Assembly (NCBI GenBank): GCA_018673955.1
Contig: JABHBJ010000042.1
Coordinates: 1 to 39,450, forward strand
Length of the DNA: 39,450 nt
Direction: 5' to 3'
Origin: Chloroflexota bacterium
GTDB taxonomy: Bacteria > Chloroflexota > Dehalococcoidia > Lucifugimonadales > Lucifugimonadaceae
Under the pieces are notes generated by a model that had not been told where the DNA came from, ran no database searches, and worked only from the letters and a program-made list of their open reading frames with translations. A program made the position numbers and the translations under genes. This document shows positions 11,687 through 20,222 of the stretch, in pieces. Each line of letters begins with the position of its first letter. Positions within the stretch are counted from its first letter, which is position 1.

Positions 11687-11782
11687 GGAATTGAGAGTAT
11701 CTTTACCGTAATGTCTTGAATTTGAGCAGAATGGCGATCCGATCGCATCGGACGGATAGAATCTACTTGTGGGGAGAATCAA

Positions 11783-12253
11783 ATGGAAATGCTCGTACCG
11801 GATGATAAATTTCCGGACATCGAATTAGATATTGCTGGTGGTGGTTCGGTTTCGCTTCCGCGCGATGTCGCTGGGCACTGGACGTACGTTCTGCTCTACC
11901 GCGGTGGTTGGTGACCGTACTGCACTCGGCAGTTAGCTGAGGTGGAAGAATGGTTCGAGCGACTTCAAGAGTTAGATATTAAAATCGTAGCTGGCAATAC
12001 TGATGGTGATTCCGATACGGCTGAAACTCATGCCAATCACGATCTTTCGTTCCCTATAGCTCATAGTGTTCCTGTTGAAATTGCCGAGAAACTAGGTGCG
12101 TGGGTTGGTGAACGGCAGGGTAAGGCCATGGTTCAACCTTGCGAGTTCGTTATCAGGCCCGACGGGACAGTAGCGGCATCGATGTACACGACGACTCAGC
12201 TTGGACGTATGAAGCCTGAGGAAATCTGTAATTTCGTGAAGGCACGGATTTAG
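11783..12253 (+). CDS. peroxiredoxin/thioredoxin-fold selenoprotein (Sec44)
   Basis: The gene begins with ATG at 11783 after a good GGGGAG site and ends with TAG at 12253, giving 156 residues if the TGA at 11912-11914 is read as selenocysteine. Sequence on both sides of the TGA is in the same frame and forms one AhpC/TSA-like domain: LVPDDKFPDIEL, then VLLYRGGW-Sec-PYCTRQLAE (Sec44, Cys47), then VEEWFERLQELDIKIVAGN and the C-terminal EFVIRPDGTVAAS. Cysteine homologues have CPYC at this redox motif, so Sec replaces the reactive Cys. A SECIS-like hairpin follows at the right distance. The likely role is a thiol/peroxide oxidoreductase in the cytoplasm. A sequencing error (TGC to TGA) or a nonsense mutation is the alternative. 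Confidence 0.85.
11912..11944 (+). promoter_or_regulatory. Sec codon TGA and bacterial SECIS-like hairpin
   Basis: Bases 11925-11930 pair with 11936-11941 (one G-U pair), extended by 11923-11924 with 11943-11944 around a bulged G at 11942. The 5-base apical loop AGUUA (11931-11935) has G in its second position and starts 16 bases after the TGA. Both features fit the known bacterial SECIS rules. Confidence 0.65.
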
Positions 12254-12318: not shown

Positions 12319-13446
12319 CTACTTGAGCGCTACTGAACCGTCTTCTCGGATTGGTGGTGCTACTAGAGCAGGGTCGAACGGGTGCATTGCGGGGGCGTCT
12401 TCGTTGAAGATGACTCCGAGCCCGGGCTTCTCGGATGGCGTGTACCAACCGTTTTCTAGTTTGATTATCACGTCGGTCATATCACGACGTGGCGGCACTT
12501 CTTCCTGAACCGATTCCTGAACGTCCCAAGAAGGCGAAGCAGTGCCAATGGCGATACATGCGGCGGTAGCGATCGGTCCTTGGAAGTTGTGTGGGCAGAT
12601 CTTGATGTGATGAGCTTCGGCGATCGTTGCAATCTTCTTCACGCCGGTAATTCCGCCAGCTACAGCGATGTCGGGTTTGAAGAACGCTGGCTTCGCCAAC
12701 TGGGCGTACTCACGGAATTCCCAAATGCCCATGTTTCGCTCACCAACGGCGAGCGGTAATCGCATTTTTGTCGCGACTTCACCCATTGCGATGACGGAAT
12801 CGGGAACGATCGGATCCTCGATGAAGTAAGGCCTTAGTTTTGCGACTTCGTCGCAGAATACTATGGCTTCGTGCGGCTGCATGTTCCTGTGAATCTCGAT
12901 TCCGATATCGAAATCCCAGCCCACAGTTTCCCGAACGGCTTCGACCATCTCGACCGCTAGGCCTATCATCCTGGTGTAAGTGAGTTCTGCCCAGTTCTTA
13001 GGCATTGGCGTGAACTTCAACGCAGAAAAACCTTGATCGAGGGCTTTCTTTGCGCCGACTGCGCACTCTTCAGGAGTGCTTCCGCCAATTCCCTGTGCGA
13101 TACCACGAACCTTTTGGCGAACTTTACCGCCAAGTAGATCCCAAACAGGTGCTTGAAGCCGTTTGCCCTTGATGTCCCATAGCGCCATGTCGATAGCGCT
13201 AATCGCACCACCAATGCTGTTACCACGGAATGCTGAGTTGTATCGCCAGAGATAGCTCCAAATGTGCTCGATATCACCGGCGTTCATCCCGATTATTGCG
13301 TCGGCGAATCCGTGAATGGTCGCTTCAGCTGCTTTCGGGTATGACCAATAGCAGGATTCTCCAATGCCTTCGGTTCCATCCTCGGTAGTGATTTTCACGA
13401 CGAGGTAACGGGCTACAAAAAACGTTTCAATTTTCGCAATTTTCAT
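12319..13446 (-). CDS. enolase-superfamily dehydratase, mandelate racemase group
   Basis: The 375-residue protein has the N-terminal capping domain (to about 110) and the modified TIM barrel. Metal ligands are E184, E210 (FIEDP) and E236 (VGERN), with the 26-residue spacings of mandelate racemase. The catalytic dyad is D259-H286 (CPHN), also at exact spacing. H186, two residues after the first ligand, is a second possible acid/base as in galactonate- and mannonate-type dehydratases. K144 stands on the second strand. It should remove water from an acid sugar to give a 2-keto-3-deoxy acid. The first ligand is Glu where Asp is usual. It is followed upstream on the same strand by an oxidoreductase and a related dehydratase. 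Confidence 0.9.
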   Translation of the reverse strand: MKIAKIETFFVARYLVVKITTEDGTEGIGESCYWSYPKAAEATIHGFADAIIGMNAGDIEHIWSYLWRYNSAFRGNSIGGAISAIDMALWDIKGKRLQAPVWDLLGGKVRQKVRGIAQGIGGSTPEECAVGAKKALDQGFSALKFTPMPKNWAELTYTRMIGLAVEMVEAVRETVGWDFDIGIEIHRNMQPHEAIVFCDEVAKLRPYFIEDPIVPDSVIAMGEVATKMRLPLAVGERNMGIWEFREYAQLAKPAFFKPDIAVAGGITGVKKIATIAEAHHIKICPHNFQGPIATAACIAIGTASPSWDVQESVQEEVPPRRDMTDVIIKLENGWYTPSEKPGLGVIFNEDAPAMHPFDPALVAPPIREDGSVALK

Positions 13447-13526
13447 TGTTTTTATTTCAGAGTGGGGAGGTGGGTCCGCAAATGGTTGATTAGTGGGGGT
13501 TGGGATTCGTGGTTAGGTTACGAGGA

Positions 13527-14777
13527 TTAAATATTCCAGTGGGCGTTGATGCTTGCTTCGTACTCTGCAGTTTCTTCGTTCTCGATTTCTTCGATAGTAA
13601 CCGGTCGGCCTAACACTGAAGATTCGAGCGCTGCGTTACAAACAGCGAGGTCTTTTCGTCCGACGTAAGCGTCAACTTCTGGCTTCGTCCCATCAGCAAT
13701 ACATTGCCCGAGTTCGTAGTACTCAAGCGCAACGAGGAACCGATCGGCATCCTCGAACGGCGTGTCGTAAGAGCCAAGCCGATCACTGCCAAAAAGACGG
13801 GTAGTTAGCTCGTCCAAATGGAAATCTGGGACGAGTTCGAGAACATCATCACCAGAAACCACTCCTACGCCATCGATAGTTAGTTTTAGCGGATTGCCTC
13901 GGCGTTGCTTTGCTGGCGCCATAGATCCTTTGCTGCCGTAGATCATTGCGTATTCTGTTGTTTCGCCGTGAGCTGCCCAGAACGAGGTCCACTGACCGAC
14001 CGCACCGTTCTTGAATTTGAGAGTGGATATGACCATATCTTCGGCTGTAGCATCGATTTCGTCAGGCACTTCGCTAGCCCAGTGCTCGTAGAAGTGTGCG
14101 ACACCGATCTTCTCGCCTTTGTACCGCTTTGGCTCCCAGACTTTCGATACGGCGTACACCTCTTCGATGTCGCCTAGGTAGTACATCATCTGGTCGACAG
14201 CATGAACGCCAGCATCTACGAAAATTCCACCAATGTTCTTGTAGTGCCGCCACGGCCAAATGATGATGTCGTTACCACCGCGAGCCGATCCGAGCAAGAA
14301 GCTGTACGGGTCGCCAATCGCACCGGAATCGAGAAGTGCTTTATTGAGTCGACACATAGGGTCACGTCGCTCTTGCTCGCCGACGCTGAGAACTTTGCCG
14401 CTACGCTTCCAGGCGTCGATTACTCGATTACAGCCTCGAACCGTGAGCGAAAGCGGCTTTTCGCAAAGAACGTTGTAGCCGAGATCAAACGCCATCTCGG
14501 CGACGAGATGATGCGAGCCTGAATCGGTAGTGATATCGACTGCCTCGATATCAGGTCGTTTCTTTTTCATATCTTCCATCGATGTGAAGATTTCGGGTCG
14601 GCTTCCGAGCATTTCCTCAGCTTTGTCGGCGAGGTGAATTGCGTTCTCTTCGCGGGTGTCGCAGACGGCGACAAGTTCGACGTTCGCCATCCCGCTTTCG
14701 TAAAGAGCTCCGAGCGCTCGTAGATGACGACCGCCCATGCCACCTGCTCCGACGATTGCGATAGGAATACTGACCAC
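13527..14777 (-). CDS. Gfo/Idh/MocA family oxidoreductase
   Basis: The 416-residue protein has the N-terminal Rossmann fold with GAGGMGG at 10-16 for NAD(P) binding and the family motif EKP at 106-108 with the catalytic Lys K107. FVDAGVHAVDQMMYYLGD near 187-204 carries the usual Asp/His pair of the C-terminal domain (D188, H192). Such enzymes oxidise or reduce hydroxyl groups of sugars and inositols. It starts with GTG at 14777, with GGAG about 8 bases upstream. It lies between two sugar-acid dehydratases on the same strand, which suggests a shared substrate pathway. Confidence 0.93.
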   Translation of the reverse strand: MVSIPIAIVGAGGMGGRHLRALGALYESGMANVELVAVCDTREENAIHLADKAEEMLGSRPEIFTSMEDMKKKRPDIEAVDITTDSGSHHLVAEMAFDLGYNVLCEKPLSLTVRGCNRVIDAWKRSGKVLSVGEQERRDPMCRLNKALLDSGAIGDPYSFLLGSARGGNDIIIWPWRHYKNIGGIFVDAGVHAVDQMMYYLGDIEEVYAVSKVWEPKRYKGEKIGVAHFYEHWASEVPDEIDATAEDMVISTLKFKNGAVGQWTSFWAAHGETTEYAMIYGSKGSMAPAKQRRGNPLKLTIDGVGVVSGDDVLELVPDFHLDELTTRLFGSDRLGSYDTPFEDADRFLVALEYYELGQCIADGTKPEVDAYVGRKDLAVCNAALESSVLGRPVTIEEIENEETAEYEASINAHWNI

Positions 14778-14865
14778 GATTTAGCTCCATAATCTTTTGT
14801 TTAGCCCGGCCTGAGTTAGGCATATTGGCAGTTTTACACCATCACCCGACGGTGTGGGGATGTGA

Positions 14866-15999
14866 CTACCGATCCTGAACGCTGCCGTCGAAACCGATTG
14901 GGGTGTCGAGGACTTTTGGATTTTCTGGGCCGGAAAGAGCGGCTTCGTTTAGTTCGATGCCGAGCCCGGGCCCTTCAGGAACGATGAGGTAGCCATCGAC
15001 AAGTTTTAGCGGCGTTACAAGAAGATCGCTCTTAGGCGGCTCAGATTCGCCGGTGTACTCCTGAAGAGCGAAGTTGGGAATACAGGCATCCAGTTGAACA
15101 CATGCTGCTGTGCTTACAGGAGAAAGCGGGTTGTGCGGAATTACTTTCACATGCTTCGCTTCAGCCATAGCTGCAACTTTTTTCGATCCTGAAAGTCCAC
15201 CGCATAAGCAGAGATCGGGTCGGATGTAAGACGCCGCGTTTGCTTCGAGAAGTTGTTCATATTCGAAGATCGTGGTGAAGCGTTCGCCGGTTGCGATTGG
15301 AATGTTGCACTGATCGGCTACATCTGCCATTCGCGCTGGACTATCGGGGAGCATCGGATCTTCGTAGAAGAACGGGTTGAACTGTTCAAGGCGTCGACCC
15401 AGCCAAATGCTTTCCGCTGGAGCCATTTGTCGGTGAATTTCGACACATATATCGACGTTACCCCCGACCGCTTCTTTGACGGCTCCGACGCGATCAACTG
15501 CTTCGTCTGCCCATTCTGTGTAGGATTTGTGCAGATAGTAGTCGGGTGCAAACGGCGTAAATCGAACTGCTGTAAAACCGTCTTTAGCAGCGGCGACAGC
15601 ACTCGCTACGAGGTCGTCTTTAGTGTCTCCTCCGACGTGCATGTAGCAGCGAACTTTGTCGCGTGTCTTACCGCCCATTAGATCGTAAATCGGTACGCCG
15701 AGTCGTTTGCCTTTGATGTCCCAAAGGGCGATGTCGATCGCTGAAAGCGCGCCTTGTACTACTGATCCCATGAAGTGTGATGAGCGATACAACCACTGGT
15801 AGTGATGTTCGATGTAGTCAGGGTTTTTACCTTTGAGGTATTCGGCCATCGTGTCGACCATCGTCTTGGTCGGTCGTTGCCAGCCGTGAACACCACCCTC
15901 ACCAATACCGACTGTTCCGTCTTCGCAGTAGATGCGAATCAACAACCAGCGATCCCAAAGAATGGTTTCGACACGTTCTATTTTGGTTGGTGTTGGCAT
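14866..15999 (-). CDS. enolase-superfamily dehydratase, mandelate racemase group (second)
   Basis: From the ATG at 15999 the protein has 377 residues. The frame is open to 16053, but the extra 18 residues precede the normal first strand (TKIERVETILWDRW), so the shorter start is preferred. Metal ligands are E187, E213 (YEDP) and E239 (TGER), and the dyad is D262-H289 (IPHNP), again with mandelate racemase spacing. H189 follows the first ligand in an E-x-H pattern, as in the gene at 12319-13446. It probably dehydrates an aldonic acid. A divergent promoter region of about 220 bases separates it from the D-aminoacylase-like gene. Confidence 0.9.
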   Translation of the reverse strand: MPTPTKIERVETILWDRWLLIRIYCEDGTVGIGEGGVHGWQRPTKTMVDTMAEYLKGKNPDYIEHHYQWLYRSSHFMGSVVQGALSAIDIALWDIKGKRLGVPIYDLMGGKTRDKVRCYMHVGGDTKDDLVASAVAAAKDGFTAVRFTPFAPDYYLHKSYTEWADEAVDRVGAVKEAVGGNVDICVEIHRQMAPAESIWLGRRLEQFNPFFYEDPMLPDSPARMADVADQCNIPIATGERFTTIFEYEQLLEANAASYIRPDLCLCGGLSGSKKVAAMAEAKHVKVIPHNPLSPVSTAACVQLDACIPNFALQEYTGESEPPKSDLLVTPLKLVDGYLIVPEGPGLGIELNEAALSGPENPKVLDTPIGFDGSVQDR

Positions 16000-16054
16000 T
16001 TTTGGCCTGATCTGTGTACTGACAGTGGGGTTGCTACGTGCAGAGGCACGCAAG

Positions 16055-16116
16055 CCGAATTGGTTTGATAGCCGAGAAGGTAGCTCTTAATTGAGGCGGT
16101 TACAAGATCAATTCGG
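16055..16116. promoter_or_regulatory. inverted repeat in a divergent promoter region
   Basis: CCGAATTG (16055-16062) and CAATTCGG (16109-16116) form a perfect 8-bp inverted repeat with 46 bases between the arms. It lies between divergent genes and may be an operator pair; no regulator gene is adjacent. Confidence 0.25.
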
Positions 16117-16223
16117 TTTGTGTTGGGCTCTTGGTGGAGTTATAACGACGGCACAAACGTGTATCGGCGTTCGTTAATCACACAATCGAACGTCCCATCG
16201 GACTGAATCCCAGACAACGGAAA

Positions 16224-17732
16224 GTGAACTCAAACTTGCTCGATCTAATAATCAAAGGTGCGACCGTCATATATGGCTCCGGTTCTGAAGGCTCGATTCT
16301 TGATGTGGCGATCGAAGGCGATCGTATCGTTTCGATTGCCTCGAACATCGAAGCTGAATCGGCTGAAGTGTTGGATGCTACTGGACTGGTGGTGGCGCCC
16401 GGATTCATCGACGTTCATTCTCACGACGATTTCCATGTACTGATCGAACCTGAGGTTCGTCACAACATCTTACAGGGCATTACGACCGTGATCGTCGGCA
16501 ACTGCGGATTCGGGGCTGCCGGTTCAGAAGCTGGCAAGATTCAGATGAAGGCGATCAACGAGCCTAGTGCCGATCTACCTGATTGGGCAGGTTACGCTGG
16601 ATATCTTGAAGAAGTCGATACAACATCTCCAGTACTTAACGTTGCTGCACTAATCGGTCATCACACGGCGCGACGTGAGGCGATGGGCGGAGTTGCTGAT
16701 CGACCGCCCAGCGGTTCAGAACTAACGGCGATGCTGGCTAACGTGACTGAAGGCATGGAGGCCGGGGCGGTCGGTTTGTCGACCGGTTTGGTTTACGAGC
16801 CGGGACGTTACGCCAATACCGAAGAAGTTGTCGCACTGTCCAAGGTTGTTGGCAAGCACGGCGGGCTTTACGTTTCGCACATGCGTGACGAAGGGTCGGG
16901 GCTACTCGATTCAGTACGCGAAACATTACACATTGGTGAGGCGAGTGGGACTGCTGTTGAGATTTCTCACCACAAAGCGGTCGGTAAATCGAACTGGGGC
17001 ATGGTCACTCAGTCGCTAGAGATGATCGAAGAAGCGATTGCTCAGGGCCGTGACGTAACTGCCGATCAATATCCATACACAGCTCGCAGTACGATGTTGT
17101 TCGCGCTGGTTCAAAACGGAACCTTCAACGACAGCGAGGGCGGCGCTATGGGCAAGTCGGATCCGTCGGAAGTGCTTTTGTGTTCGGTGCCGGGACAAGA
17201 GGATTTTGAGGGTCGTTCGCTCCAGAGCTTTGTCGAGGAATTCGATCTGCCGGGTGAAGAAGCGGCGAACAAGCTTCTTCGCGACTATTCCGATTCAATT
17301 TTGGTTGCAGCATTCGGTATGGACGAGGGCGATGTGCGAATGGTGATGGCGCACTCATCAACGATGATCGGCACAGATGGCCTGGATCGCGGCTCTAAGC
17401 CTCACCCGAGGGCATGGGGCACTTACCCACGTGTACTCGGCAAGTACGTGCGAGAAGAGGGTGTGATCTCGCTTGAGAACGCCATCTACAAGATGACACA
17501 TATGCCAGCGACTAAGTTCGGAATCGCCAATAGAGGACTGGTCAAAGAAGGTTATTTTGCAGATCTTGTATTGTTCGATCCTGACACCGTGATCGATCGT
17601 GCAACCTACGAAGATTCTCGTGTGGCTCCAGAAGGTATCCCACATGTAATCGTGAACGGAAAATTCGCTGTGAAAAATGGTGAACTCGCTGGATCACGAT
17701 CGGGGCGGGCGTTGCGAAGGGATCAGATCTAG
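16224..17732 (+). CDS. N-acyl-D-amino-acid deacylase family amidohydrolase
   Basis: The 502-residue protein matches the D-aminoacylase branch of the amidohydrolases, which cleaves N-acyl-D-amino acids and related amides. Key features are H65 and H67 in DVHSHDD, the bridging Cys C94 in VGNCGFG, GLSTGLVYEPG, GGLYVSHMRDEG (His ligand), and AVEISHHKA. The C-terminal beta domain ends with ADLVLFDPDTV. The start is taken as GTG 16224; a TTG 12 bases downstream is possible, and the ribosome-binding site does not settle it. It opens the plus-strand half of the sugar-acid island. Confidence 0.88.
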   Translation: MNSNLLDLIIKGATVIYGSGSEGSILDVAIEGDRIVSIASNIEAESAEVLDATGLVVAPGFIDVHSHDDFHVLIEPEVRHNILQGITTVIVGNCGFGAAGSEAGKIQMKAINEPSADLPDWAGYAGYLEEVDTTSPVLNVAALIGHHTARREAMGGVADRPPSGSELTAMLANVTEGMEAGAVGLSTGLVYEPGRYANTEEVVALSKVVGKHGGLYVSHMRDEGSGLLDSVRETLHIGEASGTAVEISHHKAVGKSNWGMVTQSLEMIEEAIAQGRDVTADQYPYTARSTMLFALVQNGTFNDSEGGAMGKSDPSEVLLCSVPGQEDFEGRSLQSFVEEFDLPGEEAANKLLRDYSDSILVAAFGMDEGDVRMVMAHSSTMIGTDGLDRGSKPHPRAWGTYPRVLGKYVREEGVISLENAIYKMTHMPATKFGIANRGLVKEGYFADLVLFDPDTVIDRATYEDSRVAPEGIPHVIVNGKFAVKNGELAGSRSGRALRRDQI

Positions 17733-17805
17733 CGAGACTGTCTTGGTATTGGAGAGTAGACTGCGCCCGATTAGTGCTCGGTTCATTAGGGAACGTTAGG
17801 AAGCT

Positions 17806-18996
17806 ATGTCGTCAGAAATAATCGAATCGGTATCGGTAACGCCGATCCCGTCGAGCTATCGAAAAGAGCTTGGTAAGAACGCATATATCGACAACATCGG
17901 TACACAACGACTCGAATGGGTTGTGCGCGCTAGGAGCTCGAGCGGTGCCGAGGGTATTTCGATTGCTAATCGAATGATGCGAGAAGGCAGCGTTGAGACC
18001 ATGTTGGCGTATATTAAGGGGGCACTGCTTGGGCGTGAGGTCGATCAGCTATTGGAGATTTCAGATGGCGTCGTTACTGGCGCCGGCCCGGGCATGGATC
18101 GTTGGTATCGTCGGAACGGTTGGATGACCATTCTGGCGTTCGATCTAGTCGGTAAAGTTCGCGGGGTATCTGCGATAGATCTACTCGGCGGTAAGAAGCA
18201 CGATTCTGTTCCTGCCTACGACACAACGCTCTATTTCCAAGATTTCCTGAACCCAGAGCGAGGTGCGCTACAGGTTGGCGATGAAGCGGCACAAGCTGTT
18301 GCCGATGGTTGGCGAGCGATCAAGATCAAGCTGGGGCGTGGCGGCAGATGGATGCTGCCCGAAGACGGTATGCGTCGCGATATAGAGGTTGTACTCGGTG
18401 CTCGTGCAGCCGTTGACCACGACGTGAAAATCTATGTCGATGCGAACTTCGGTTACGACGGTCATCTTGATTTATTGGATCAACTCATTAAGGAAGTTAC
18501 ACCGGCAGATATTTTCTGGTTCGAAGAGATGATTACGCACAACCTTGATGGCTACAAGACGATGCGAGAATCGCTTGCCAAGCATGGATCGAAGGCACTG
18601 CTTACTTGTGGCGAGGTCGACCGTGATCCTATCTCAGAAGTGTTCCAAAATTTGATCGACGGTGGCTTGATCGATGGTTACCAGCCCGACATCGTGGGGC
18701 ATGGCTACTTGGGTTGGATGGATCTCGAACGTCAGCTCGAAGGAACCGGCGTTCGAACGATTCCGCATAACTTCGGCAATGGATCGTTCGGAAGCTACGC
18801 CAGCATCGTTTGGGGAGCGGCTTCCCAGACTTACGTTTCGCTTGAAGATGAACGAGTGATTCCGCACTATCTTACCGCCTTGCCTGATTTCACAAACGGC
18901 GCTTACGCACTTCCAACCGGGCCTGGTTTGGGAATGGATATCGATGAAGCCGGTTACGCCCCGCATGCCAAGCATGAGAACAGGATGGAGGCGTAG
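17806..18996 (+). CDS. enolase-superfamily protein, KxK type (tandem copy 1)
   Basis: This 396-residue protein has the enolase-superfamily barrel with K173-x-K175 (AIKIKLG), D212-A-N214 (VDAN), E240 (WFEE), E270 (CGE), D295 (QPDI) and H321 (IPHN). This set is like mandelate racemase: a Lys base on one side and an Asp-His dyad on the other. Unlike the minus-strand pair, it has the standard Asp first ligand. The N-terminal capping domain is atypical. It shares a YFQD...NP block and the GWRA(I/V)K(I/L)KLGR block with the next gene. AGGAAG precedes the ATG. Racemase, epimerase or dehydratase activity is possible; the substrate is unknown. Confidence 0.85.
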   Translation: MSSEIIESVSVTPIPSSYRKELGKNAYIDNIGTQRLEWVVRARSSSGAEGISIANRMMREGSVETMLAYIKGALLGREVDQLLEISDGVVTGAGPGMDRWYRRNGWMTILAFDLVGKVRGVSAIDLLGGKKHDSVPAYDTTLYFQDFLNPERGALQVGDEAAQAVADGWRAIKIKLGRGGRWMLPEDGMRRDIEVVLGARAAVDHDVKIYVDANFGYDGHLDLLDQLIKEVTPADIFWFEEMITHNLDGYKTMRESLAKHGSKALLTCGEVDRDPISEVFQNLIDGGLIDGYQPDIVGHGYLGWMDLERQLEGTGVRTIPHNFGNGSFGSYASIVWGAASQTYVSLEDERVIPHYLTALPDFTNGAYALPTGPGLGMDIDEAGYAPHAKHENRMEA

Positions 18997-18998
18997 AT

Positions 18999-20222
18999 AT
19001 GGAAAATTCAAGCATTGATGGTCACATCATCAACAAAATTACGATTACTCCTGTTGAGAACTACTTTGGTTCGCCCGGCAAAGGTCGACTCGTTGGTCGC
19101 AACGCCAAGATGGAGAACTACGGAATCAACCAGCGTGAGTGGCTGCTTCAGGTTTCGACCGACTCGGGATTGACCGGATTGAGCAACGCCCGACCGGCCA
19201 TGAACAAAGGTGGAATCCTCGACCTGTACAACGATTTTCAAGATCTAATCGGTAAGCCGCTGTCAGGGTTCTTCAACGTCTCGGGCGGTCGTGTGACGAA
19301 CATTAATCCTCGTTGGTCGGACTTGATTGATCGCTACGGATTCCTAGACGTCGCCTTGTTCGATCTGATCGGTCAGTCACTAGGCCAGCCTGCCTACAGC
19401 CTTCTTGGCGATAAGGTGCGAGACAAGGTTGAAGGCTACGATTCGAGCTTGTATTTCCAAGATTTGGTGAACCCAGCTGAGGGTGCGAACGCTGTTGCCA
19501 TCGAAGCCGCTGAAGCAGTAGAAAAAGGCTGGCGAGCCGTGAAGCTCAAGCTGGGACGACCCGGCAAGTGGTTTGAGCCACACGCTGGCACTCGTCGTGA
19601 CATCGAAGTCGTTGAGTCGGTGCGAGCAACGGTTGGTGACGACATAAAAATTCTTGTCGACGCGAACAACGGTTACGACGGTCGAATGGATCTTCTGGAA
19701 GACTTCGTTCGAGGAATTGGAGATCTTAATGTTTTCTGGATGGAAGAAATGGTCACCGAGAATATCGCTGACTATCGAAAACTGAACGAATGGCGAGACA
19801 AATACACGTCAAAGACGATGATCGTTGATGGTGAGAGCCACAAAGGACGCCAAACGATCTACTGGCAGTTGATGGAAGCAGGACTTCTCGATGCCATTCA
19901 GCCCGATATGCTCCACATGGGATTTTGGCAGTTCCACGTATTAGCGAGGGACATCGAAGACTCAGACGTCGACACGCTCATTGCTCCTCACAACTACAAC
20001 GCTGCCTATCTCGGTTTGCGAGCCGATATTCAGTTCGGAGCGTCCACTCGCCGGTTCGTGATCGCTGAAGATTCGACTTTAGATTTCGAGCTATACAAGG
20101 GCGCTGACTACGTGTTTGAAAACGGAGAATACGCTGTTCCTGATTCGCCAGGATTGGCAGTAAGCATCGATCAAGATCTTTACGATCGTGTGTACAAACA
20201 ACACGAAACTATAATCAGTTAG
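18999..20222 (+). CDS. enolase-superfamily protein, KxK type (tandem copy 2)
   Basis: The 407-residue paralogue of the preceding gene begins 2 bases after its stop; a GGAGG inside the upstream gene end serves as ribosome-binding site, so the two are translated from one mRNA. Catalytic residues are K182-x-K184, D221-A-N223, E249 (WMEE), E279 (DGES), D303 (QPDM) and H331 (APHN). The two proteins keep the same spacing but differ widely elsewhere, so this is an old duplication with probably different or paired substrates. They could form a heteromer; that is only inference. Confidence 0.85.
   Translation: MENSSIDGHIINKITITPVENYFGSPGKGRLVGRNAKMENYGINQREWLLQVSTDSGLTGLSNARPAMNKGGILDLYNDFQDLIGKPLSGFFNVSGGRVTNINPRWSDLIDRYGFLDVALFDLIGQSLGQPAYSLLGDKVRDKVEGYDSSLYFQDLVNPAEGANAVAIEAAEAVEKGWRAVKLKLGRPGKWFEPHAGTRRDIEVVESVRATVGDDIKILVDANNGYDGRMDLLEDFVRGIGDLNVFWMEEMVTENIADYRKLNEWRDKYTSKTMIVDGESHKGRQTIYWQLMEAGLLDAIQPDMLHMGFWQFHVLARDIEDSDVDTLIAPHNYNAAYLGLRADIQFGASTRRFVIAEDSTLDFELYKGADYVFENGEYAVPDSPGLAVSIDQDLYDRVYKQHETIIS

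Follow-up and report, generated by a model that had tools for sequence, protein, structure and literature searches.

A peroxiredoxin-like gene kept across a family of uncultured Chloroflexota very probably encodes a UxxC selenoprotein with an intragenic SECIS hairpin

The window, by which we mean the whole 39,450-nucleotide stretch of Chloroflexota DNA that was analysed, carries a gene for a 156-residue protein of the AhpC/TSA fold that is very probably a selenoprotein (we put this at about 96%). Its UGA codon would be read as selenocysteine (Sec) by way of tRNA-Sec and SelB, guided by a hairpin within the gene at 11925-11941. The case is a comparative one: comparison with relatives shows that the UGA is conserved, that both of its flanks are coding, that the predicted hairpin is constrained and that genes for Sec decoding are present in the genome. 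The features discussed below are as follows.

11783..12253, + strand: Sec-containing peroxiredoxin-like (Prx-like) gene, 156 amino acids with TGA as Sec, stop codon TAG
11912..11914, + strand: UGA codon, Sec44; Cys homologues have the first residue of their CxxC motif at this column
11921..11923, + strand: codon for Cys47, the second residue of UxxC, invariant
11925..11941, + strand: predicted bacterial SECIS hairpin, with stem 11925-11930 / 11936-11941, loop AGUUA at 11931-11935 and a conserved G at 11932
11770..11776, + strand: purine-rich, ribosome-binding-like sequence, read by eye; GGGGAG stands just 5' of the ATG

The frame starts with the ATG at 11783 and terminates with the TAG at 12251-12253, and its single internal stop is the TGA at codon 44. 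An earlier note on this DNA had described a frame open on both sides of the TGA, and no other stop falls within 11783-12253. Under table 11 this gene is listed only as 11942-12253, a 103-residue frame with a GTG start that is missing the first 53 codons and the active site, which is the loss that had been foreseen for a simple gene caller.

Near-full-length copies of the gene occur in 36 of the 76 genomes of the host's family, 39 copies in total; 38 of these contain exactly one TGA and the other contains none. When 36 TGA copies were aligned, 34 from the host's family and two from elsewhere in the class, the TGA stood at the identical codon in 36/36. The earlier note had placed this TGA where homologues have the first Cys of a CxxC motif (GGW-TGA-PYC), and the homologue alignment agrees: class-wide, column 44 is TGA or Cys, with one informative Ser, and four changes on the tree account for the distribution of Sec, Cys and Ser. 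Outside the class, another family of the phylum contributes a further Sec copy (L190), whose hairpin has the same AGUUG loop and a G+C-rich stem. Against close relatives, pN/pS is well below 1 both 5' and 3' of the TGA for almost every pair compared; the exception is one very close pair with few changes, in the short part 5' of the TGA. Because the TGA is kept in every aligned copy, the flanking protein is conserved and pN/pS is so low, the frame stands far above chance. A scan of contigs with alignment A1 returned only Cys forms, because A1 placed C at the Sec column, and we used these forms as a Cys control.

Within the class, Prx-like frames at greater distance (L049, L050, L052, L054; G257:C48; G288:C35) also have one TGA at the motif, as in FYRGHWUPFC. 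Such TGA-bearing frames often lie two or three side by side, and they are probably further Sec Prx-like families.

The host genome (2.2 Mb in 103 contigs, 87% complete) contains all of selA, selB, selC and selD, the search for which had been proposed as a check. Named relatives point to Chloroflexota as the phylum, and the genes in the window allow no more than a guess at a SAR202-like affiliation. A tRNA-Sec with anticodon UCA matches Rfam RF01852 at 66.4 bits (cut-off 47), and ARAGORN agrees; SelB scores over its cut-off, and SelA and SelD are found at 4.6e-155 and 7.5e-109. SelD (L181:1735-3045, on contig C96 of host genome G000) has one in-frame TGA, at SCAGUAGK, and is therefore likely a selenoprotein itself; SelD is a known selenoprotein family (PMC13188914). 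Within the host's family, SelB is present in 34/36 genomes with the gene versus 19/38 without it (Fisher p = 2e-5, with species that are not independent and with two genomes holding gene fragments left out). Of the two gene-bearing genomes that lack SelB, one is 76% and the other 56% complete. Class-wide there is one exception, G142, which has a TGA copy and no SelB over the cut-off; its gene seems broken at the C-terminus.

Around the gene, we found no conserved operon partner: the upstream cupin gene and the downstream enolase-superfamily gene are kept in close relatives only. Several enolase-superfamily (mandelate racemase-like) paralogues are clustered at 12319-20222, that at 12319-13446 assigned by Pfam and the others by eye. 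The 36 genes of the window end in TAG (25), TAA (7) or TGA (4), and a low-complexity GCAGCAGCAGAA-type repeat tract occupies positions 1-230 at the contig edge. Apart from its main genes, the window has two other TGA-interrupted frames, neither of them plausible. An Rfam search of the window gave no match, and a scan of viral contigs gave no relative.

The predicted hairpin, CUCGGC-AGUUA-GCUGAG, has a 6-bp stem and a 5-nt loop with G in second position. The earlier note was right about the size of the loop and its G; the distance of 16 bases that it gave for the hairpin belongs to the start of the loop, and the stem begins about 10 nt after the UGA. Published terms for a bacterial SECIS element are a loop of 3-9 nt with G in its first two positions, a stem of 4-16 bp, a distance of 16-37 nt from the UGA and a minimum free energy of at most -7.5 kcal/mol (PMC13188914). 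The window hairpin lies within the loop, stem and spacing terms; the bare 17-nt hairpin, at -7.2 kcal/mol, falls just short of the energy term, and a 45-nt fold reaches -16.3. The folding energy of the window sequence alone is unremarkable (z = -0.56), so the hairpin in a single sequence is not evidence by itself; the comparison across relatives is.

Across the 36 aligned TGA copies, 29 have the hairpin after the TGA with a constant AGUU(A/G) loop. The other seven, the L043 group (L043, L152, L156, L159, L161, L163 and L165), come from seven genomes of one genus and have a USYC motif; they share the Sec codon and have a different downstream sequence, AGCTACTGCCGNAGGCAGCTAG, without the window-type hairpin. 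They were left out of the covariation and codon tests, which cover the 29. In these copies, 88.5% of cells pair, and covariation scores 0.442. Shuffles, which do not model relatedness, average 0.154, and none of 500 reaches the observed score; sliding the partner strand yields at most 0.162. The column pair 15-29, which joins a wobble base (column 15) to the second base of codon +9 (column 29), varies among U-A, G-C, C-G and U-G. Two copies have U-A instead of G-C at pair 18-26, and with it Asp instead of Ala. RNAalifold favours another, nearly invariant hairpin at columns 8-12/18-22, which we rejected as the SECIS element: it has no two-sided pair changes, four of the five pairs are almost fixed, and the start of its loop is only about 9 nt from the UGA.

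Codon choice points the same way. For the leucine of the loop, 29/29 copies use TTA or TTG, which make up 18% of Leu codons in the remainder of these genes; for the glutamine, 29/29 use CAG, whose share elsewhere is 74%. When about 140 codon positions were ranked by codon choice given the residue, +7 came first and +4 second, with +8, +5 and +9 in the top twelve; the constraint is maximal at +4 to +9 after the TGA. The Cys homologues carry no such constraint (TTA/TTG in 24/73, CGG in 10/73). Compared in this way across relatives, the predicted hairpin is shown to be under constraint at the RNA level, with compensatory changes in its stem.

A tandem duplication offers a natural control. In G257 (L173:3913-4954) two copies stand in tandem: the first has the TGA and a CAGTTA loop; in the second the Sec codon has become TCA (Ser) and the loop reads CAATTA, a synonymous change having removed its G. 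The tree sister of the Ser copy is a Sec copy from another genome, with support 100/100. Loss of the loop G in the Ser copy is as expected if this G serves only Sec insertion, and it is a single event. The pair is also ready-made material for testing the requirements of SelB.

The read-through product matches Pfam AhpC-TSA (PF00578) over residues 7-132 (E=1.8e-21; 76.8 bits against a cut-off of 26), and because the match spans these residues the homology crosses the TGA. The motif is YRGGW-U-PYC-TRQL, and homologues have GxW-C-PYC where the window protein has GGW-U-PYC. An AlphaFold model, built from the alignment with Sec replaced by Cys, is a high-confidence Prx-like fold (pLDDT 91.6) in which residue 44 directly precedes a helix at 45-56, like CxxC thioredoxin folds. 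The closest solved folds are Bcp4, AhpC, PrxQ and 1-Cys peroxiredoxins. When aligned to PxxxTxxC-type peroxiredoxins (e.g. L048), Sec44 falls at the Thr position and Cys47 at the position of the peroxidatic Cys. The protein is thus outside the peroxiredoxin pattern PxxxTxxC/U, whose Thr site three residues before the peroxidatic position is here Sec44, and none of the NCBIfam peroxiredoxin models attains its cut-off with it.

We infer that catalysis would most likely begin with attack by Sec44, a selenolate sited ahead of the first active-site helix, on an oxidised substrate (peroxide or disulfide). Cys47 would then resolve the intermediate as a Sec44-Cys47 selenenylsulfide, and a thioredoxin-type reductant would reset the enzyme. 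Because Sec44 and Cys47 occupy the Thr and peroxidatic positions, a peroxidase cycle would be no more likely than one like that of thiol-disulfide oxidoreductases. A further idea, which we hold to be possible and on balance doubtful, is that within the Prx-like selenoenzymes the clade is a subfamily of its own, with Sec at the old Thr site and Cys at the peroxidatic site both redox-active, and with a substrate or cycle unlike those of peroxiredoxins.

Could this instead be a Prx-like gene of the ordinary Cys type, its TGC or TGT turned into TGA by faulty sequencing or assembly or by a recent nonsense mutation? Cys homologues with TGC or TGT at codon 44 do exist, but a read error is excluded in practice because the same TGA recurs in 36 separate species genomes of the host's family. 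Purifying selection on both sides of the TGA and a hairpin constraint seen in TGA copies only also argue against this explanation, which we regard as extremely improbable. We give equally little credence to UGA as a sense codon, for Trp or Gly, in this organism. UGA is indeed a rare stop, yet it does terminate 4 of the window's 36 genes; no internal in-frame TGA occurs in SelA or SelB, the residue aligned with the UGA is Cys, neither Trp nor Gly, and a tRNA-Sec with the UCA anticodon is present.

In every Sec gene, decoding of the UGA has to compete with termination. This, together with the GTG at 11942, speaks for an account in which the UGA is mainly a selenium-sensitive stop and the important product is the 103-residue frame from that GTG. 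Such a product, however, would begin beyond Sec44 and Cys47 and miss the fold's first strands, and the codons 5' of the TGA are under purifying selection; we consider this account very unlikely. Decoding of the UGA as Sec is the reading that we prefer.

The gene is a new lineage member of the Prx-like UxxC selenoproteins, not a new kind. The earlier note had limited the novelty to lineage and member, and rightly so, since Prx-like UxxC selenoproteins are already described in PMC1088965, PMC2398784 and PMC13188914. What is added is a clade-wide Sec Prx-like lineage in uncultured Chloroflexota, which is not described in those three papers or in PMC1794560, where three selenoproteins are already counted for Chloroflexi. 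Ordinary gene calling truncates these Chloroflexota proteins, and in their alignment the comparative case for a bacterial SECIS element is unusually clear.

Several known systems share features with the window protein. The SelL-related redox protein NF040769 has a Prx-like fold in common with it, and 11/11 A1 members match that model weakly (best 2.6e-6); the window protein has only one Sec and scores 14.6 bits against the cut-off of 120. Classical and Sec peroxiredoxins (Bcp/PrxQ, AhpC, TxxU Sec-Prx) share the fold (Bcp4 3hjp, TM 0.88) and the AhpC-TSA domain, whereas in the window protein Sec replaces the Thr of PxxxTxxC and Cys47 takes the peroxidatic site. A 2026 review lists a 'Prx-like thiol:disulfide oxidoreductase, UxxC, UxxU' and a cd02970 'UxxS' form (PMC13188914). 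The latter, a peroxiredoxin-like selenoprotein, shares the superfamily name and Sec at the first motif position, and differs, when compared by description, in that the window protein is UxxC. The nearest counterparts are the Prx-like family found in the Sargasso Sea in 2005, with UXXC instead of TXXU (PMC1088965), Prx-like 1 of the 2008 GOS survey (pfam00578, UxxC, 225 sequences; PMC2398784) and the Prx-like thiol:disulfide oxidoreductase of the 2026 review. Like these published proteins, the window protein belongs to PF00578, has a single Sec in UxxC rather than TxxU or TxxC, has a predicted bacterial SECIS element just 3' of the UGA and comes from marine or other uncultured bacteria. Compared by description, the present clade is set apart from them by its motif, YRGxW-U-xYC-xRQL (with PYC, GYC or SYC), and by the retention of Sec through most of a single Chloroflexota family.
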